Of a stretch of 64,000 bases of DNA, positions 1 to 10,648 are shown one piece after another. Position 1 is the first letter of the stretch. The number at the start of each line of letters is the position of its first letter. The notes beneath the pieces are model-generated. The model was given only the letters and a program-made list of their open reading frames with translations, had not been told where the DNA came from and searched no databases. The position numbers and the translations under genes were made by a program. The DNA comes from Coriobacteriia bacterium (GTDB lineage Bacteria > Actinomycetota > Coriobacteriia > Anaerosomatales > JAAXUF01), in assembly GCA_013336165.1 (NCBI GenBank), contig JAAXUF010000004.1:1-64000 (forward strand), given 5' to 3'.

Positions 1-86
1 GCTACTGGAACACCAAGAGGTACCAGCCGAAACTGAAAGGGCTGAGCCCGGAACAATTCCGGACCCAGTCCGTGGACGCCGCTTGA
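1..86 (+). CDS. IS3-family transposase, C-terminal 27 residues (partial)
   Basis: Reading from base 3, the frame encodes YWNTKRYQPKLKGLSPEQF and ends RTQSVDAA before TGA at 84-86. The block with an aromatic residue, N-x-K-R, then LKGLSP-x-Q-[FY]-R is the conserved end of the DDE integrase domain of IS150/IS3 OrfB transposases. The catalytic DDE residues lie upstream, outside the window, so activity cannot be judged. The terminal repeat immediately downstream supports the assignment. Confidence 0.8.
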   Translation, partial: YWNTKRYQPKLKGLSPEQFRTQSVDAA

Positions 87-125
87 GACCCCTATTAAGC
101 CGTCCAGCTTTTGGGGTCTAGTTCA
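1..125 (+). mobile_element. Right end of an IS3-family (IS150-type) insertion sequence
   Basis: The left edge of the window holds the last codons of a transposase and then a terminal repeat at 101-125 that finishes in GGGGTCTAGTTCA. This has the shape of an IS150-group right end, where a run like GTCCAACTTTTTGGG precedes the tip. The element continues beyond base 1, so its full length, left repeat and target duplication cannot be seen. Sequence after 125 returns to normal chromosomal content, with a ferredoxin gene ending at 161. Confidence 0.75.
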
Positions 126-160: not shown

Positions 161-337
161 CTAGTTCTGAGAAATAGCACCGTTCGGGCATGCGTCCACG
201 CAGATTCCGCACTCGGTGCAGCCGGCAGGCCGACTCAGGACGGCCGTATCCTCGAGATCGTAACAGCTGTTCGGGCACTCATCGACGCAGATACCGCAAG
301 CTGTGCACACTTCCTTGTCAACTACGGGCACTGACAT
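161..337 (-). CDS. 2[4Fe-4S] ferredoxin
   Basis: A 58-residue clostridial-type ferredoxin, a soluble low-potential electron carrier of anaerobes. Two cluster motifs are visible, CTACGICVDECP near residue 11 and CTECGICVDACP near residue 41, each with the C-x2-C-x2-C-x3-C-P spacing that binds a [4Fe-4S] cluster. The ATG at 337 is chosen because GGAGAGG lies about 8 bases upstream; an earlier in-frame ATG would add seven unrelated residues. It stands alone, 36 bp from the IS end and about 110 bp from the upstream cassette. The redox partner is unknown, though several Fe-S oxidoreductases lie within the window. Confidence 0.92.
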   Translation of the reverse strand: MSVPVVDKEVCTACGICVDECPNSCYDLEDTAVLSRPAGCTECGICVDACPNGAISQN

Positions 338-450: not shown

Positions 451-2052
451 TCAAGCACGAACGGCGCCCGCTGACCTGGCTATTTCAGCGATTTCTTCAG
501 GCGTCCACATACAGAAGGGATAGGTCCTGTCTGTGAGAATATCGGCAGCTGCGCGCTGCGATTCAAGCGACGCCAACCCCGCTTCGTACGCCTCGCGCAC
601 AGGCGAAAGCAGGGCTCCCAACTCTGCGGTGACCTCCCGAATTCGCAGTCCCAAAGCCTTCTTGTCTGCGCCGGGTGCCGAGATGAGCGAGAGCAGGCCG
701 GCCTTCTCGGCGGCAAGCGCATGCGCCGCAGAGCGCTGTTCAGCCGAGTCGAACACGATCTCGCCGAGAAGAGCGTCAGGGTTGTGAACGAGCCGATTCA
801 ACCGCTCCCGCGCCGCAGAGAGTTCCTCATCCGCGATCCGGTGAGCACCAACCGGCAACCGCAGAGTCAGCGAGGCGACCACGAAACCCAGAGGTTCGAC
901 ACCGTAGTAGCGCCGACACACGCCGTCGGTGACCACATCATATCGGCCGCCACCCACGCCATGGATGAAGATATCTGCACAGAACACTCGAGCGAACAGG
1001 GTCAGCGCCAGCGCCTTCGGAACGATCACCATCCCCGCCTGCCGCAACACTCCGACGGCGGAAGGGCCGTCGGATGGCAACTCGGCGGCAAGCTGGCCGT
1101 CGGATGTCCGCAAAGCGACGCACCCACCCGCACACGGCTCAGCCCACAGGCCTGTTCTAATCCCGTTTGAGATCAGCCAGAGCGGAAGCTCATAGCGACC
1201 ATCAGCGAATGCGAGATCCGGGAAGGGCTGAGCCCCCGTTCGCACCTTGTTCGCCGCACGGTACTCACCGAGTTCGGAGTTATGCGCATTCGCAAATCGC
1301 TCTGCGGACAGTGCGAGATCCACCACGAACGTCGCAAACGCCTCCGTGCGGGCCAAGCTGGTCAACGGCAGTTCGCGATAGTCGTTCCCTGCAGCCGCCT
1401 CGTAGCGACGGCGCGCAATTGTGACGAGTTCGGCAAGATTATGCGAATCGGCTACCGATTGGCGCAAGAGTTCGCAGAAGTGACCGACATTGCGCCGCAC
1501 CTTCGTCGCGGGGAGATCTGCAACCATCGCTTCGACCGCCGAGCAGAACTCACCCAGAGCTTGTTCACTCGGCACCGGCGCACAAGCGAAATAGGAACCG
1601 GGCGTCCCGATAGCAAGGTCGACTTTGCAGCGATGTACTTCCGGAGTGAAACACGGTGCGCTTATGCCTACAGACTCGAATCCGTCCGAATCGACAACGA
1701 CATCGATAGCCGTTGCGCCCATATCCTCGGCCAGACGCTGCAGAAGGAAGGCCTTGATCCACACGCCGGGATGGTAGATCTCCGGCTGGTGCCCGGCCAT
1801 GACGATAGGGGCCTCGGGATCGCCCGAGCCGCCCAGAACCACTCCAAGTCTGACGGAGAGATCGGCACCGGCTGCGACCGCTTCCTCGCGAGCCAGCTTT
1901 CGCATCGATTGGGCATCCCGACCGGCGATCGTGAACTGCCACTGTGAAGCTGCAGCGCGATTTGCCGAGGCAAGCGCGGCCCAATCGCTATACGGCGGAA
2001 CCGCGATGAGTTCGTCGTCCCCTGTCGGCAGAGCCGGTTTCGGACGCGTCAT
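451..2052 (-). CDS. BshC-like protein of unknown function, third gene of a GT2/PIG-L cassette
   Basis: A 533-residue soluble protein. Near residue 85 it has AGHQPEIYHPGVWIKAF followed by a VVVDSDG strand. This resembles the N-terminal GQQPGLFGGP...HDF region of the bacillithiol cysteine-adding enzyme BshC. A later FIHGVGGGRYDVV segment fits the BshC second Rossmann-like half, and the C-terminal third looks helical (residues 440-510). The ATG at 2052 follows the PIG-L stop by 4 bases, so the two are translationally coupled. The resemblance is distant and no catalytic residue is established. It may join an amine to another group in a pathway built with the upstream deacetylase, but a wholly different role is possible. 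Confidence 0.6.
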   Translation of the reverse strand: MTRPKPALPTGDDELIAVPPYSDWAALASANRAAASQWQFTIAGRDAQSMRKLAREEAVAAGADLSVRLGVVLGGSGDPEAPIVMAGHQPEIYHPGVWIKAFLLQRLAEDMGATAIDVVVDSDGFESVGISAPCFTPEVHRCKVDLAIGTPGSYFACAPVPSEQALGEFCSAVEAMVADLPATKVRRNVGHFCELLRQSVADSHNLAELVTIARRRYEAAAGNDYRELPLTSLARTEAFATFVVDLALSAERFANAHNSELGEYRAANKVRTGAQPFPDLAFADGRYELPLWLISNGIRTGLWAEPCAGGCVALRTSDGQLAAELPSDGPSAVGVLRQAGMVIVPKALALTLFARVFCADIFIHGVGGGRYDVVTDGVCRRYYGVEPLGFVVASLTLRLPVGAHRIADEELSAARERLNRLVHNPDALLGEIVFDSAEQRSAAHALAAEKAGLLSLISAPGADKKALGLRIREVTAELGALLSPVREAYEAGLASLESQRAAADILTDRTYPFCMWTPEEIAEIARSAGAVRA

Positions 2053-2056
2053 CAGC

Positions 2057-2752
2057 CTATACCAGATCCGTAATGGATCGAAGACAGATCGGCTCAAGTG
2101 CGAAGAACGGCTCCCCATATCGAACGCGCGCCATCGCACCCCATGCGGCGGCCTGCTGCTCGACGAACTCGAGCATCCCGTTGTTCGCGGGGTTCTCGGC
2201 AAATTGCGATTCGTATGCCCCGAGCGCTGCGATCTTGTCCGACAGGTGCTCGGAGACGTCGACGATGAATGACGGTTCGGCGACAAGACGCATGTGCACA
2301 GCCATATACCGGTAGACACGCTCGGGAAAGTACGGCTCGCCCGACATCTTGGTCTTGGTGAGCTTCGCGTAGAAACGTGCCGCCAGTGCGATCTGAGAAG
2401 CCGCAAGATGGTCAGGATGCGCGTCCTGAGGAAACGGCACAAACAGCGTCTGTGGCCGCAACTCCCTGATCACCTCGGCCAACTCCATGCGGGCTTCTAC
2501 AGTATCGAAGAGATAGCGGTTGCTTTGCGTCAAGGTCCGTCGGGTCGCGCCGAGAACCCGTGCGGCCTCCGATGCCTCCGCTGCTCGCCTCTCAGGGGTG
2601 CCGTGCGGGGTAGGTTCACCGTTGGTCAGATCGACCAATCCGACACGCATCCCTTGGCCCACCATCTTGGCAACCGTAGCGCCCATGCCAATCTCGACGT
2701 CGTCAGGATGGGCACCAATGCACAGTACATCGCACAGCGATTCGGTCGTCAT
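2057..2752 (-). CDS. PIG-L family N-deacetylase (BshB1-like)
   Basis: A 231-residue LmbE/PIG-L zinc hydrolase. The metal-binding motif AHPDDVEIGMG is at residues 14-24, and HPDH, the second metal-binding site, is near residue 112. The C-terminal YGEPFFALEP segment matches the BshB1 type of the family. These enzymes remove an N-acetyl group from GlcNAc conjugates such as GlcNAc-malate (BshB), mycothiol precursors or GlcNAc-inositol. The ATG start overlaps the stop of the upstream GT2 gene by 4 bases (ATGA), and the stop is 4 bases before the BshC-like gene, so the three form one transcription unit. The substrate is probably the product of the GT2 enzyme. Confidence 0.88.
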   Translation of the reverse strand: MTTESLCDVLCIGAHPDDVEIGMGATVAKMVGQGMRVGLVDLTNGEPTPHGTPERRAAEASEAARVLGATRRTLTQSNRYLFDTVEARMELAEVIRELRPQTLFVPFPQDAHPDHLAASQIALAARFYAKLTKTKMSGEPYFPERVYRYMAVHMRLVAEPSFIVDVSEHLSDKIAALGAYESQFAENPANNGMLEFVEQQAAAWGAMARVRYGEPFFALEPICLRSITDLV

Positions 2753-3450
2753 CGCTCATCCTCTTCCAAAGCTTGGCTCCACACTGCCATATAGTAAGCC
2801 AGCCGGCGTTCGGGATCATCCAGGAGTTCGCCGAAGGAACGGTCCTGCCCACAATAGATGCGCTCCACCGAAATCTCGCGCACGCTCAGACCGCAACGCC
2901 ACGCCTTAGCCCACAACTCAAGCGGCATTGCGTATCCGCTTTCGCGCAGCCGAATACACTCGATCGCATGGAGTCGGTACGCCTTGAAACCGCAGAATGC
3001 GTCTGTCAGCCCCCAGCCGGTGACACGATTGATCTCACTCGTGACCGTGGCATTGATGCTGCGCCTGTCGTTTGGCGCCACTCCAACCGACGCAGAACCC
3101 GGTAGGTACCGGCTACCTGAAATGATGTCTCCGCCGCTGGCCAGAGCGTCAAGGAACTGCGGTATGTGCGCAGGCTCATGCTGGCCATCGCAATCCATGG
3201 TGATCAGATGCGACACACCCATGTCCGCTGCCAAGCCAAATCCGACCTTCAGAGCGCAGCCATACCCGCAATTGCGGTCGAGGTGCACCGTCGTGATGTC
3301 ACTGCGGGCAGCCAGCACGCGTGGAGTCTCATCCGTCGACCCGTCGTCTACAACTATGATTTCTCCCCTGAAATACCGCCGAACCGCATCTAAGACGGTG
3401 GCGACTGTCGGGGCTTCGTTATAGACGGGCATCAACACTGCGTCGGGCAA
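2749..3450 (-). CDS. Family 2 glycosyltransferase (DPM1/polyprenyl-phosphate mannosyltransferase-like)
   Basis: A 233-residue GT-A fold enzyme with no membrane segment. MPVYNEAPTV at residue 7, EIIVVDDGSTDETP at about residue 31, the metal-binding MDCDGQHEP near residue 88 and GSRYLPG near residue 112 are the classic GT2 motifs. The length suits the soluble DPM1/DolP-mannose synthase subgroup. A TTG start at 3450 is chosen because GAGG lies 8 bases upstream and the NTP-binding strand begins at residue 4. It heads a cassette with PIG-L and a BshC-like gene and would supply the sugar conjugate that PIG-L deacetylates. Acceptor and donor are unknown. Confidence 0.85.
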   Translation of the reverse strand: MPDAVLMPVYNEAPTVATVLDAVRRYFRGEIIVVDDGSTDETPRVLAARSDITTVHLDRNCGYGCALKVGFGLAADMGVSHLITMDCDGQHEPAHIPQFLDALASGGDIISGSRYLPGSASVGVAPNDRRSINATVTSEINRVTGWGLTDAFCGFKAYRLHAIECIRLRESGYAMPLELWAKAWRCGLSVREISVERIYCGQDRSFGELLDDPERRLAYYMAVWSQALEEDER

Positions 3451-3539: not shown

Positions 3540-3965
3540 TTAGGCCTCAATCCGGTAACTGGTCATGATCTCGACTTGAGGCCCAAACATCCCACGAACC
3601 GAGCAATACTTGTCGTGCGAAAGCTCGATGGCCCGCTCAACCGACTTTGGTTTCACGTCGGAACCCTTCACGACGTAGACGAGCTCGATCCTCGTGTAAA
3701 TCTTTGGGAACTCGTCCTCACGTTGGGTGGCCTCTACCTCCATCTCCAAGCCGGTGAAGGGCTCACGCTTCTTCTCCAGTACCGAAACGACATCCATCGC
3801 CGTGCAACCAGCCAGAGCATAGAGCACGAGTTCAATGGGGCGGGGACCGGTGCTCTCGCCTCCATATTCGGGTGTGGCGTCCAGGACGATCCCGTGGCCG
3901 GCGCTGTCCCACGCCGAGAACTGCCTATTGGCGGACCAACGAACCCTAACCTTATCCAACGCCAT
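3540..3965 (-). CDS. OsmC family peroxiredoxin-like protein
   Basis: A 141-residue OsmC/Ohr-type protein, a family that reduces organic peroxides with a pair of cysteines. GPRPIELVLYALAGCTAMDV near residues 43-62 carries the first conserved Cys, and HDKYCSVRGMF near residue 117 carries the second. The ATG at 3965 has GGAGG 5 bases upstream; a longer in-frame start 11 codons earlier lacks a site. It lies about 90 bp from the GT2 gene and 68 bp after the PilT gene on the same strand. The subgroup is YhfA-like rather than Ohr, whose physiological substrate is uncertain. Confidence 0.9.
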   Translation of the reverse strand: MALDKVRVRWSANRQFSAWDSAGHGIVLDATPEYGGESTGPRPIELVLYALAGCTAMDVVSVLEKKREPFTGLEMEVEATQREDEFPKIYTRIELVYVVKGSDVKPKSVERAIELSHDKYCSVRGMFGPQVEIMTSYRIEA

Positions 3966-4032
3966 GATTACCTCCAAAACAGTAGTGGCGAGCCACAACT
4001 GCGGCCCGCCACATGAGTTCGCGGCCTTGCTC

Positions 4033-5613
4033 CTAGAGCTTGCGACCCACCATGGCTGCCAGTTCTTTGGGATTGCGAGCCTTGCTGATCGCCTCCTGGA
4101 ATGTGATCTTCCCTGCAGTCAGCAGGTTCTTCAGGCTCTGATCGAGCGTCTGCATTCCTTGAGAACCGCCACCTTGGATGATTGTCTCCATTTGGTGCGT
4201 TTTTCCCTCACGGATCAGATTCTGGATCGCCGGAACGCCGAGCATGATCTCCATCGCCATGACTCGTGTCTTGCCGTCGGTACACGGCAGAAGGGTCTGC
4301 GACAGCACACCTTCAAGGCACGTCGAGAGCTGCATCCTTACCTGCGCCTGCTGATGAGGCGGGAATACATCAATGATGCGGTCGATTGTCTCAGGGCCAC
4401 CGGTCGTGTGCAGAGTCGCGAAGACGAGGTGTCCCGTTTCTGCCGCCGTCAACGCCGCAGAAATCGTCTCCAGATCGCGCATTTCGCCGACGAGGATGAC
4501 ATCCGGGTCTTGACGCAACACTCGTTTGAGCGCAGATGCGAACGAAAGAGTGTCCTCGCCCACCTCACGCTGATTGACAAAGCACCTCTTGTTGCGATGC
4601 ATGAACTCGATCGGGTCCTCCATGGTTACGATGTGCAGGGCCTTTGTCGTGTTCACGTGATCGATCATGGCGGCAAGCGTCGTCGACTTGCCCGAGCCAG
4701 TCGGGCCCGTCACGAGTACGAGGCCCCGGGGACGGTCGGCCAAGAATCGGCACACCGGAGGCAGACCGAGTTGTTCCAGCGTCGGGATATCGATCGGGAT
4801 CGCACGGAAGACCGCGCCCATCGAATTACGCTGCTGAAAGACATTGGCCCTGAAACGGGAGACCCCCGGAATGCTGTAGGCGAAGTCCAGTTCGAGTTCG
4901 GTCTCGAACCGTTTGCGCTGCTCTTCAGACAGCAGTCCGAGAATCATCTCCGTCGTGTCTCGGGGAGTCAGCGGATTCATATTCTCGATGCGGATGAGTT
5001 CACCCCGCTGGCGAATGCCGGGAGGGCTACCTGCGGTGATGTGCAGGTCGGAACCACCTCTGTCAAGCATAATATGCAAGAGATCGTCGATGTGGGGAAG
5101 CCCGGATGTGCGCCCATCAGTTTGCGGCGCAGCAGTCCCCCGAGAGCCGACAGCAGTGCTCATTGGCACGTCACCTTCACTCCCCGTGGTACGAGGCACG
5201 GCACGTAGGGATTCGTCTTCGCAGAGAGCTATGGAGGGCTTGTAGCCCGCAAGAACCGCGATCCTCTCGGCGATCGGTTCCACAGAGCCGACCGAGGACA
5301 GTTCGTCAACCGCACCTGCTCGGTGCGCTCTCGCCGATGACTCCACTCCCGTCTCCGGATTGATGATCACAACGGGAACGTCGCGCGTGGCCGCGTCCGA
5401 CTTCACCCGCTCGGCGAAGGCGAAACCGTCCATGCCGGGCAGCTTCGCCTCGACTACCAACACATCCGGCACGTTCTGCTCGAGAATGCCAAAGGCCCGC
5501 GGCGCCGAAATGGCACTGGTCACTTCGAGGCCGGGCGCCCTTTCGAGCAGAGCCGTCTTCACGCTCAACACGAAACGGGCGTCATCATGGACTATCAGCG
5601 CCGTCTTGGACAC
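4033..5613 (-). CDS. pilT: PilT-type ATPase with an N-terminal degenerate receiver domain
   Basis: A 526-residue fusion. Residues 4-118 are a CheY-like receiver, but the phosphorylation strand reads VLVVEAKLPGMDGF, with Glu where the phosphoacceptor Asp normally stands, and the C-terminal Lys is missing. A Pro/Thr/Ser linker follows to about residue 175. The rest is a PilT/PilU hexameric retraction ATPase: Walker A GPTGSGKSTT, Asp box TMEDPIEF, QREVG, Walker B VILVGEMRD, and a His box with ATLHTT. It would drive type IV pilus retraction or a similar motor, with output set by the pseudo-receiver. The GTG at 5613 has AAGAGGAG 9 bases upstream; ATGs at 5619 and 5622 are alternatives. No other pilus gene is in the window. 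Confidence 0.88.
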   Translation of the reverse strand: MSKTALIVHDDARFVLSVKTALLERAPGLEVTSAISAPRAFGILEQNVPDVLVVEAKLPGMDGFAFAERVKSDAATRDVPVVIINPETGVESSARAHRAGAVDELSSVGSVEPIAERIAVLAGYKPSIALCEDESLRAVPRTTGSEGDVPMSTAVGSRGTAAPQTDGRTSGLPHIDDLLHIMLDRGGSDLHITAGSPPGIRQRGELIRIENMNPLTPRDTTEMILGLLSEEQRKRFETELELDFAYSIPGVSRFRANVFQQRNSMGAVFRAIPIDIPTLEQLGLPPVCRFLADRPRGLVLVTGPTGSGKSTTLAAMIDHVNTTKALHIVTMEDPIEFMHRNKRCFVNQREVGEDTLSFASALKRVLRQDPDVILVGEMRDLETISAALTAAETGHLVFATLHTTGGPETIDRIIDVFPPHQQAQVRMQLSTCLEGVLSQTLLPCTDGKTRVMAMEIMLGVPAIQNLIREGKTHQMETIIQGGGSQGMQTLDQSLKNLLTAGKITFQEAISKARNPKELAAMVGRKL

Positions 5614-5751
5614 GAACATCATCTCCTCTTGGGGTCGAAGAGCGAGCAATCCACCCATCTCACCCATCCCCCGTCGGCCTATCAAGACAATGTATCGGCT
5701 ATGCGCGCTCGATTCTAAACACAATTTTGAGCACTACTTCGGGTAGGATGT

Positions 5752-7493: not shown

Positions 7494-10400
7494 CTACGTG
7501 TCGTTGCGAACGAAGTCGATAAACTTCGGCACCAGATACGGAATCAGCTGCGGCAGGTACGTCGGCATGAGCGCATCCATCGTCTTAGGCAGCAAGTCAG
7601 GCATGAGCGCTTCCATATCCTCCGGCATCGGTCCAATGAATTCCTGGACTGCGGCGATCAGATCGGGCATCACCTTACCGAGTATCCCGGGTGCCAACAT
7701 CGGGAACAACGCAGGCATCATCTTCTCCATCAAGGAAAGTCCGCCTGGCACGTGCTTCATTGCAAGCATCATCGGTTTCATGCCTGCAGGCATCGAGTCC
7801 AGCATCTGCGGGAAGACCCTCGTCATCAGCTGGGCCATTTCCTTGGGCGCCATCAACCTGATGAACTTGTCGAAGAAACTCCACATGTAGGTCGCATTGG
7901 ATGAACTGGATGCGATGTCATAACCCGCCGCCTGCGCCACGATCCGCGCAAGATCGTCAACCTTCAGATCCAGCCCGCGCTTGTCGACGCTGTCCCGAAG
8001 CTGGACTTGGCAGCACGGACATGCGGCGATAACGGTGTCGGCACCGGCATCGATCGCCTCCTGGAGCCGGTCGCCGCCGATGATGGGAGCCACATCGATT
8101 TCACCGATGAGAGTCATAACCGACCCACAGCACTTGCCGTCTTCACGGTTGTGTTCCATCTCGACGTAATCGACACCCGGAATAGCGGCAAGCATCGTCC
8201 TTGGAGGTTCGTAGATGCCCTGAGCACGCCCGAGATGGCAGGAGTCGTGGAAGGTGAGGGTACCCGGAACGGCATTCTTCAACTCGAGACGGCCATCCGC
8301 AACAGCTTCAGCAACGAGCTCGGAGTAGTGCTTCACTTCGAAGTCATACTCATCGCCGCGCTCCGCGGCCAAGTTTGCATAGAACTCCTTCCAAACAAGC
8401 CCGCACGCAGGACACGATGTGACAATCGTCTTTGCACCGCGCTTCTTGGCCTCGCCGGTGTTGTGGCGGTATATCTCCTCAAACAGGTCCCATTTGCCGG
8501 CCATTTTCATCGGAATGCCACAGCACGCCTCGTCGGTACCCATGTACGCGATGTCGTATCCCGAGTCTGTGAGCAGTCGTATCGACGCCTCGGCGATGTC
8601 CTTCTCAACGAAGCTTGCGGTACAACCTGCGAAGTAGAGGATCGGTCCCTTGTCTTTCAGCTTGGGCTTCATGTCCTCAGGAACCCAGTCGGCACGGTGC
8701 TCGGCCTTTCCGGCCCAGATATCGCGCTCTCCCCGTAACGAAGCAGCCATCATTTCGAAGGGCGGGAACGTTCCCCTCTTCTCCTCGTTGATGAGCTTGC
8801 CACGCAGTTCCATCCAGTTGTGCTCGATCGGCAACTGCACCTGGCAGCGCGTGTTGCAGACCTCGCACGTGGTGCACACCAGAATCGTGTCGATCGCCTT
8901 TCGATCCCACTTCTGCCGACCCTCGATCACCTCACGGATGAACGCGTACTTGCCGCGCGGTGACTGTGACTCCCAGCCTCGGCTTGAATACTGATCGCAT
9001 GTTGAGACGCAGTAGCCGCACCGCGCGCACGCATACGCCATGAACGCCACATCACCGGGTATTCCGTTCATCTCCTTCGCGAGATCACCGGGACCGGCGG
9101 GGGCCTTCGCGGCGTTCGCGATCGGCCGTATGATCGGCTCCAATGCACTCGCTGCGCCCATCAGCACATCAAGTGCGCCAAACCCAAACACCTTGCCTGG
9201 GTTCATGAGATTGCGCGGATCGATCTTCCGCTTGTAGTCGCGCAGTGCGCGAACCTTCTTCTCTCCCAAGACGTCTTCGGCCTCAAACCGGAAGTACAGG
9301 CCTGTTGAGTACGCCGACCCTCCGTGGGCCTTTGCGATCCGGATGACCGACAAGGACAGCGCGAAGGCCATGTTGAAGTTGAATGTCCGCTCGTCATGCG
9401 GGATGAAGCCGAGAAGGACGACGTGGTCACCTTTCGCAACCATGCCTTCCAGTACGAACGGTTGCTTGATCTTGTCGGCGATCTCTCCGAGCACGGCAGA
9501 GAGCTGGTCGACCGGCACGACGACTTCGGTCGGGATGATCGATGGTCCGATGCGCTTGAGTCGCATGGGAGCGAAGCGCTGGTCCCATTCATGCTCGGCG
9601 ATTGCAGTGTCAAGTTCGGTGCCGCCCACAGTTGCCACGATCGCATGCAGCGCTGCATCGATCGCCGAGTGCCGAGACACAGGATACGCGACCAGGAGCA
9701 AATAGGTCTCAGGAAGCTCCGGCTCGAAGAGCTGATGCTGCAACTCGTATGGATGCCCGTGACGATGCGGCAGCCGCTTCTTGAGGCGAGACGACTCCGG
9801 ATTCAGGAAGGTGATCGACCAGATCGGAACGTTCTTCGCCGAGATCTGCGCGACCCCTCGTGCAAGCGAGTCCGCGTCAGGAAACGCTATCAGGCGATGA
9901 ACCTCGTCCTCAAGCGGCCTGACCTTGAAGGTGACCTCGGTGATGATCCCGGTGATACCCTCGGCATCAGCGATGTAGTCCAACAACTCCCCGCCTGCGA
10001 ACTCCTTGACTTCGCCACTAGGCAGCACGACTCTCGCACTCACGACGTTGTCCTTGAAAGCTCCGTACTCATAGCTCCCAAAGCCGCTACCACCCTGCGC
10101 AAGCCATCCAGCGACAGAGGAACTTGAGTGGGAAGACGGGTAGAGCCTCAGCGCGAGCCCGCGCTTGGCGATCTCGGCTTCGACCCGTTCCCAGATTGCG
10201 CCTGCCTGCACTCGAACGGTAGACGCGGAAACGTCGACCTCGAGTACCTGCTGCATGCTCGCCAAGGAGACGACGATTGCGCCTCTCCGGGGAAGTGCGC
10301 CGCCATAGCCGCTCGTGGACCAGCCACGGGGAGTCAGCTGCCACCCCTCGTTCACCGCAGCTTGTGCCAACTTCACGATCTGCGTTTCGTCCTTCGGCCG

Positions 10401-10565
10401 CACAACAGCGCCGGCGATTCCGGCCGGGACGAGGGGTTTGACCAACCTCGGCATGGCCCCTATGTCGAATGAATACATAGACCGCTCGCGCAGGTCAGTT
10501 CGGACTCGCTTGTCGCCGAAGATCGATTTCAACGACTCCTCAACGCGCTTGGGCACTGCTGCCAT
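7494..10565 (-). CDS. FAD-linked oxidase / Fe-S / double CCG-domain oxidoreductase
   Basis: A 1,023-residue fusion. Residues 30-200 form a FAD_binding_4 (GlcD/VAO) domain with PRGWSTSGYGGALP and GWLAQGGSGFGSYEYG. Residues to about 480 form the FAD oxidase C-terminal domain ending in DPRNLMNPGKVFGFG. Two [4Fe-4S] motifs follow, CARCGYCVSTC and CTTCEVCNTRC. Two CCG (HdrB/GlpC-type) domains follow, the first with CCGIP and CPACG, the second with CCGS and CPCC. The last 120 residues are Met/Pro-rich. The plan matches D-lactate/glycolate dehydrogenases joined to their Fe-S subunit; the substrate is unknown. The ATG at 10565 replaces a longer frame with no ribosome-binding site. See the operator at 10649-10679 for regulation. 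Confidence 0.88.
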   Translation of the reverse strand: MAAVPKRVEESLKSIFGDKRVRTDLRERSMYSFDIGAMPRLVKPLVPAGIAGAVVRPKDETQIVKLAQAAVNEGWQLTPRGWSTSGYGGALPRRGAIVVSLASMQQVLEVDVSASTVRVQAGAIWERVEAEIAKRGLALRLYPSSHSSSSVAGWLAQGGSGFGSYEYGAFKDNVVSARVVLPSGEVKEFAGGELLDYIADAEGITGIITEVTFKVRPLEDEVHRLIAFPDADSLARGVAQISAKNVPIWSITFLNPESSRLKKRLPHRHGHPYELQHQLFEPELPETYLLLVAYPVSRHSAIDAALHAIVATVGGTELDTAIAEHEWDQRFAPMRLKRIGPSIIPTEVVVPVDQLSAVLGEIADKIKQPFVLEGMVAKGDHVVLLGFIPHDERTFNFNMAFALSLSVIRIAKAHGGSAYSTGLYFRFEAEDVLGEKKVRALRDYKRKIDPRNLMNPGKVFGFGALDVLMGAASALEPIIRPIANAAKAPAGPGDLAKEMNGIPGDVAFMAYACARCGYCVSTCDQYSSRGWESQSPRGKYAFIREVIEGRQKWDRKAIDTILVCTTCEVCNTRCQVQLPIEHNWMELRGKLINEEKRGTFPPFEMMAASLRGERDIWAGKAEHRADWVPEDMKPKLKDKGPILYFAGCTASFVEKDIAEASIRLLTDSGYDIAYMGTDEACCGIPMKMAGKWDLFEEIYRHNTGEAKKRGAKTIVTSCPACGLVWKEFYANLAAERGDEYDFEVKHYSELVAEAVADGRLELKNAVPGTLTFHDSCHLGRAQGIYEPPRTMLAAIPGVDYVEMEHNREDGKCCGSVMTLIGEIDVAPIIGGDRLQEAIDAGADTVIAACPCCQVQLRDSVDKRGLDLKVDDLARIVAQAAGYDIASSSSNATYMWSFFDKFIRLMAPKEMAQLMTRVFPQMLDSMPAGMKPMMLAMKHVPGGLSLMEKMMPALFPMLAPGILGKVMPDLIAAVQEFIGPMPEDMEALMPDLLPKTMDALMPTYLPQLIPYLVPKFIDFVRNDT

Positions 10566-10648
10566 CCCTGTCGCTTCCTCTCGTCTATTCTGATCCGACC
10601 GGCCGCAGCTGCGAACACGATCGAAACGCACACTGCTCCATAGCAAAC

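Follow-up and report, generated by a model that had tools for sequence, protein, structure and literature searches.

The DNA analysed here (the window) comprises the first 64,000 nucleotides of contig JAAXUF010000004.1, from a Coriobacteriia bacterium of the order Anaerosomatales with a 1.99-Mb genome. Close to the contig start, at positions 451–3450 of the minus strand, it carries a cassette of three genes, A, B and C, coding for a GT2-family glycosyltransferase, a PIG-L deacetylase and a protein that an initial annotation, made from the sequence alone, had likened to BshC of the bacillithiol pathway. Bacillithiol is a small protective sulphur compound. We propose, with moderate confidence, that the cassette specifies a parallel three-step pathway of the bacillithiol type, in place of BshA–BshB–BshC, in which C would ligate an amino acid, probably cysteine. 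The proposal is built on the order and coupling of the genes, their conservation and co-occurrence, the absence of canonical BshC from the carriers searched and of BshA above the cut-off in the order, the fold of C, the similarity of B to BshB1 and the GT-A fold of A.

Organization and distribution of the cassette

The coordinates and strand given for the three genes in the initial annotation, together with the 4-base overlap and the 4-base gap between them, were all exact on re-examination, the start codons being chosen by alignment. The start of B overlaps the stop of A (ATGA) and C begins after the gap downstream of B; A, B and C are translationally coupled.

C is found in 59 of 61 relatives from the order, and in 47 of the 48 good genomes. 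The three genes are contiguous in every sampled member of the order with a long enough contig, at identities of C to the window protein down to 35%. Of 150 genomes sampled across the class, 65 carry C and 64 carry A; the two sets coincide except for one 73%-complete metagenome-assembled genome (MAG). C is present in 65 of 68 genomes of the order versus none of the 82 outside it, from which A is likewise absent (0/82). A horizontally transferred cassette on a mobile element was considered and dropped on the basis of this contrast; the viral contigs and plasmids searched contain no relative of C.

A scan of GTDB contigs revealed at least 546 loci encoding a relative, and 79 loci were fetched. 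Among these, the A–B–C triplet occurs in Armatimonadota, 'ANGP1', Limnochordia-type Bacillota, Nitrospinota and Nitrospirota; in most of the 24 distant triplets the genes overlap or nearly touch. Planctomycetes carry A–C pairs, and C stands alone in three loci of the anammox group (two Scalindua and one Anammoxibacter). Most relatives come from MAGs, some with doubtful titles: cassette genes occur in MAGs titled 'Aeromicrobium' and 'Slackia', names that are probably wrong. The class survey shows no C outside the order.

If A, B and C form one pathway, genomes with an unlinked C should carry A and B elsewhere. A was found elsewhere in all four genomes in which C has no A neighbour (two Scalindua, one Anammoxibacter and one Nitrospinia), with scores of 283–327 bits, the other GT2 proteins of these genomes reaching at most 127. 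A deacetylase of the B clade (at least 270 bits) is present in 11 of the 13 genomes without an adjacent B. The initial annotation read the three genes as a possible functional set, which would have been refuted had they rarely occurred together; they co-occur nearly everywhere, linked across the order and in other phyla, or unlinked yet present. Correlations between the pairwise distances of A, B and C are 0.83–0.88 over 76 loci and 0.90–0.92 over the 24 distant loci, in part because the genomes share their ancestry.

Canonical BshC (PF10079) is absent from all 41 genomes of the order and from all 13 genomes of other lineages that were searched, while the positive controls B. subtilis, Thermus and Deinobacterium were detected. 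For BshA (TIGR03999), the search covered the order, and no GT4 protein of the 41 genomes scores over the cut-off. On these counts, the possibility that the genomes run the canonical bacillithiol pathway with an overlooked BshC or BshA was dropped. In family f23, elsewhere in the same phylum, a PF10079 BshC adjoins a BshB deacetylase; this family constitutes a natural comparison group.

The three encoded proteins

No Pfam or NCBIfam family matches C by sequence. A single-sequence phmmer search of the PDB gave no match at E values up to 10, and a profile search of the PDB gave helical chance matches only. The relationship to BshC is seen at the level of the fold. An AlphaFold2 model of C, constructed from 33 orthologues, has a mean predicted local distance difference test (pLDDT) of 93.9 (the order-level alignment of 33 members has a mean column identity of 56%), and its best PDB match in Foldseek is B. 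subtilis BshC (4wbd), aligned over the full length with 569 columns (E = 9.6e-13). A match to an unrelated family, which the initial annotation had named as an outcome that would refute its reading, was not found by sequence for this 533-residue protein.

The hhalign comparison of a C profile (112 rows) with BshC gave 332 colinear columns and a score of 39.1, with a probability of 25% and P = 7.5e-4, the BshC set consisting of 11 sequences dominated by one family. As this match is weak alone, it was checked against 30 column-shuffled profiles, which scored at most 22.8, and a reversed profile, which scored 18.7, and it is ranked secondary to the fold match. PF10079, the Pfam model of BshC, does not detect C; the colinear match lies well above the shuffled controls, and the kinship to BshC proposed from the sequence is supported. 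The fold match to 4wbd and the colinear profile match together place C in the BshC superfamily. C belongs to this superfamily by fold but lies outside the BshC family that PF10079 defines.

The segments AGHQPEIYHPGVWIKAF (C residues 86–102) and FIHGVGGG (residues 362–369) had been singled out as recalling BshC. Both were found in the protein, and in the hhalign alignment they are the counterparts of the BshC motifs GQQAGLLTGPLYTIHK and GPGEINY; their order is the same and their spacing similar. Their presence is not a matter of chance: over 112 rows of relatives, some of them near-duplicates, G87, H88, Q89, P90, H94, G96, K100, D121, R355, D360, H364, G365, G367, G368 and Y371 are 95–100% conserved, H364, G365, G368 and Y371 being invariant and G367 reaching 97%. 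When the alignment is read by eye, the BshC motifs (GQQ...GP...K; R-P..Q/D; GPGE..Y) are matched in C by G87/Q89/G96, R299, R355, D360 and G365/G367/Y371.

The second-best fold match of C is the class I lysyl-tRNA synthetase 1irx (E = 1.3e-6), and nothing in the C sequence fixes the amino acid. The same three steps might then end with the attachment of an amino acid other than cysteine, giving a non-thiol aminoacyl-glycoside (an osmolyte, a signal or a cofactor precursor). We hold this to be quite unlikely: BshC, the sole characterised relative, functions in adding cysteine in vivo, most members of the order have an OsmC-family gene upstream of the cassette, and lineages devoid of BshC, together with an order devoid of BshA above the cut-off, leave room for another thiol.

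B scores 207.6 bits with the NCBIfam BshB1 model TIGR04001 (cut-off 182.5). Of 20 sampled members, which include proteins from other phyla, 18 score at about the cut-off or higher. With the MshB model TIGR03445, B scores 49.5 bits, below the cut-off of 224.35. The motif AHPDDVEIGMG is found at residues 14–24 as described, and the positions invariant in 20 members also include H112 and H115. The assignment of the protein to the BshB1 type holds as far as this score is concerned but has to be narrowed. In a phylogenetic tree, linked and unlinked B proteins group together, apart from the BshB proteins of BshC-bearing genomes. The loop residues G45, E46, P47, T48, P49 and G51 are invariant in 20 linked members, and the GEPTP sequence is invariant or nearly so in B, whereas BshB proteins mostly have GEL(S/T)(S/T)NG there: SSNG or STNG occupies the position in 8 BshB genes from BshC-bearing genomes, and the solved BshB1 proteins have ELSSNG or DLSSNG (GEMGSKG in Thermus). 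Compared with the latter, B also has the extra invariant basic residues R126 and K130. On these sequence comparisons, B is a sister clade of BshB1 and not BshB1 proper. B, as the deacetylase, would be expected to recognise the aglycone, and its differences at invariant positions favour, but do not prove, an aglycone that is not malate. Planctomycetes with A–C pairs also carry a second clade of PIG-L proteins, which score 190–211 bits with the B profile and share the GEPTP loop.

The AlphaFold2 model of A (pLDDT 94.3) matches the fold of dolichyl-P-mannose synthase (5mlz, PfDPMS; E = 5.4e-15), ArnC and glucosyl-3-phosphoglycerate synthase (GpgS) at similar template modelling (TM) scores; with GpgS, the TM-score is about 0.75 and the identity in structural alignments is 17–21%. 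Orthologues of A across phyla are 41–72% identical. The initial annotation described the first gene as a DPM1-like GT2 enzyme and not BshA. The family is indeed GT2 (PF00535) and not GT4, but the fold of A is about as close to soluble GpgS as to dolichyl-P-mannose synthase, so that 'DPM1-like' does not fix the acceptor. A ends soon after the catalytic domain, at 233 residues, without a C-terminal membrane domain, and its strongest hydrophobic segments are near the N-terminus; some DPM1 enzymes also have no C-terminal membrane domain. The simplest reading is that A would use a small acidic acceptor.

A lipid acceptor would lead to another product, a lipid-linked aminoacyl sugar: A would make polyprenyl-phosphate-linked N-acetylglucosamine (GlcNAc), B would deacetylate it and C would attach an amino acid. 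The product would be a precursor used in decorating the envelope. In sequence and in fold, the solved relatives nearest to A are the polyprenyl-phosphate enzymes DPMS and ArnC, and the motif DCDGQH of A aligns with DADLQH of PfDPMS. Of the residues of PfDPMS that contact the lipid phosphate, Arg117, Arg131, Ser135 and Lys178 (PMC5526996), the two arginines are kept in A as R114 and R129. However, Ser135 is replaced by an invariant Asn (N133) and Lys178 by Ala, Gly or Ser, the protein of about 233 residues has no equivalent of the C-terminal membrane domain of DPMS, ArnC and GtrB, B and C resemble enzymes acting on soluble substrates, and no envelope genes are conserved beside the cassette outside the order. 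We consider a lipid-linked product unlikely.

The resemblance of A to GpgS is also relevant to the possibility that the product is bacillithiol itself, A being a GpgS-like, non-orthologous replacement of BshA that joins GlcNAc to L-malate, and B and C being divergent forms of BshB1 and BshC. The acceptor of GpgS, 3-phosphoglycerate, resembles malate in being a small hydroxy acid; B scores above the BshB1 cut-off, the fold of C is that of BshC, and the lack of canonical BshC (41 + 13 genomes) and, in the order, of BshA above the cut-off agrees with such a replacement. On the other hand, the loop of B is invariantly changed to GEPTP and accompanied by the extra invariant R126 and K130, so little of the BshC sequence is kept in C that PF10079 misses it, and bacilliredoxin (PF06491) has no match over the cut-off in 31 carrier genomes. 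With these differences, bacillithiol appears to be a rather improbable product.

Proposed pathway, product and neighbouring genes

We favour a pathway of the bacillithiol type whose substrates and product would be as follows. In the first step A, as a soluble GT-A enzyme, would move an N-acetylated amino sugar (GlcNAc is the most likely, with its uridine diphosphate derivative, UDP-GlcNAc, as donor) onto a small acidic acceptor bearing a carboxylate or phosphate. B, a putative zinc-dependent PIG-L deacetylase, would then strip the acetyl group to leave a free amine. By analogy with BshC, C, with its core resembling class I aminoacyl-tRNA synthetases, would act as an amide ligase joining an amino acid, most likely cysteine, to this amine. 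This would yield a low-molecular-weight thiol, a relative of bacillithiol whose aglycone need not be malate. A more specific form of this proposal, which we put forward tentatively, is that a novel thiol, a cysteinyl-glucosamine glycoside with a non-malate aglycone made by the uncharacterised A–B–C pathway, serves as the glutathione equivalent of the carriers, namely Anaerosomatales, Armatimonadota, Limnochordia-type Bacillota, Nitrospinota, Nitrospirota, Planctomycetota and anammox bacteria.

Several observations weigh against the bacillithiol-type pathway. The Foldseek TM-score between C and 4wbd is moderate, at 0.54. BshC itself was without demonstrated activity in vitro as of a 2015 review (PMC4360819), so that the mechanism of the third step is taken from the genetics of a distant relative. 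The two phosphate-binding arginines of dolichyl-P enzymes kept in A make a lipid acceptor possible. Among the 13 genomes without an adjacent B, one (G216) has only a weaker relative of the second Planctomycete type (202 bits) and another (G219), the MAG titled Slackia, carries C with no deacetylase of the B clade. The negative result for PF06491 means that no bacillithiol-specific redox partner is seen, which argues against a direct copy of bacillithiol physiology. DinB_2 proteins, a proxy for the superfamily that includes the bacillithiol S-transferases (PMC5815605), are a mixed marker, found in 17 of the 31 carriers, including the genome of the window.

The genes around the cassette were compared between loci. 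Outside the order no conserved neighbours were found; within it there are just two, an OsmC gene and a PilT-like gene. Upstream of the cassette, the OsmC gene was found at 47 of the 73 loci from the order (the flanks are short in many of the remaining loci) and at none of 34 distant loci. The OsmC-family protein is an associated protein, probably not one of the pathway enzymes; its gene is possibly co-transcribed with the cassette. The coordinates of the cassette, its motifs and the OsmC gene are presented in table 1.

Table 1. Genes and motifs of the cassette and the upstream OsmC gene in the window.
Feature	Positions	Strand	Remarks
A, GT2-family glycosyltransferase	2749..3450	-	233 aa; TTG start; first cassette gene; PF00535, 84.8 bits
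B, PIG-L deacetylase	2057..2752	-	231 aa; PF02585; sister clade of BshB1
C, BshC-superfamily protein, unnamed family	451..2052	-	533 aa; predicted amide ligase
DCDGQH, DxDxQH donor/metal motif (A 86–91)	3178..3195	-	D86, C87, D88, Q90, H91 invariant (26 members)
AHPDDVEIGMG, zinc/catalytic motif (B 14–24)	2681..2713	-	H15, P16, D17, D18, E20, G24 invariant (20 members)
GEPTPHG loop (B 45–51)	2600..2620	-	separates B from canonical BshB (GELSSNG/GELSTNG)
GHQPEIYHPGVWIKAF (C 87–102)	1747..1794	-	counterpart of BshC GQQAGLLTGPLYTIHK motif (hhalign alignment)
HGVGGGRYD (C 364–372)	937..963	-	counterpart of BshC GPGEI(N/A)Y motif (hhalign alignment)
OsmC-family protein, upstream of A	3540..3965	-	PF02566, 62.9 bits; ATG start chosen, TTG at 3998 possible

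The PilT-like gene (4033–5724, minus strand) codes for a PilT-type secretion/twitching ATPase whose N-terminal part is a response-regulator receiver domain, and its synteny with the cassette extends over much of the order. Just downstream of C, a 58-residue protein with two CxxCxxCxxxC ferredoxin motifs (161–337, minus strand) was read by eye. Reading by eye also showed the end of a transposase-like frame at positions 1–87 (plus strand), right at the contig start, where the assembly probably broke at a mobile element. Positions 7494–10646 (minus strand) code for a 1050-residue fusion protein, in which FAD-binding oxidase, 4Fe-4S and CCG domains are followed by a C-terminal tail of about 130 residues rich in Met and Pro.

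No description of the A–B–C set was found in literature searches, which covered open-licence papers and in which absence is not proof. Two surveys of bacillithiol genes used BLAST with the Chlorobaculum BshC and strict thresholds (PMC6282198, PMC12719100); since the BshC models tried give no detectable match to the C sequence, these two surveys would have missed this pathway. If C makes a cysteine amide, a candidate redox buffer and a set of genes to test become available for lineages without bacillithiol genes, among them the Planctomycetes and anammox bacteria. A very divergent second family with the BshC fold, standing beside its own deacetylase and glycosyltransferase, would represent a new route to elucidating BshC chemistry. 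Anaerosomatales has cultivated strains (PMC9686372) and nearly all of its sampled members carry the cassette, so that thiol measurement should be feasible.

Comparison with known systems

The mycothiol pathway (MshA–MshB–MshC) has a similar logic, with sugar transfer, PIG-L deacetylation and ligation of cysteine by an enzyme resembling class I synthetases. It differs in its components: B is far below the MshB cut-off, C matches BshC and not the CysRS-like MshC, and A is a GT2 enzyme and not GT4.

A shares with PfDPMS (5mlz), ArnC and GtrB the GT-A fold, the DxDxQH motif and the two phosphate-binding arginines, but it is distinguished from them by the missing membrane domain, by the substitutions at Ser135 (Asn) and Lys178 (Ala/Gly/Ser), and by being embedded with BshB- and BshC-like genes. 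GpgS has a fold similar to that of A, is soluble and uses a small acidic acceptor; its sequence similarity to A is low, and it belongs to a different glycosyltransferase family, the retaining GT81.

Bacillithiol synthesis by BshA, BshB1 and BshC (B. subtilis; 4wbd, 6p2t) likewise combines a glycosyltransferase, a PIG-L deacetylase and an enzyme with the BshC fold; B is above the BshB1 cut-off and BshC is the nearest fold of C. The differences concern each component, with the GT2 enzyme A in place of the GT4 enzyme BshA, B forming a sister clade with the GEPTP loop, and C being invisible to the Pfam model of BshC. They extend to gene organization: most lineages keep A, B and C in a single contiguous set, whereas B. 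subtilis has bshC in an operon separate from bshA–bshB1 (PMC4360819).

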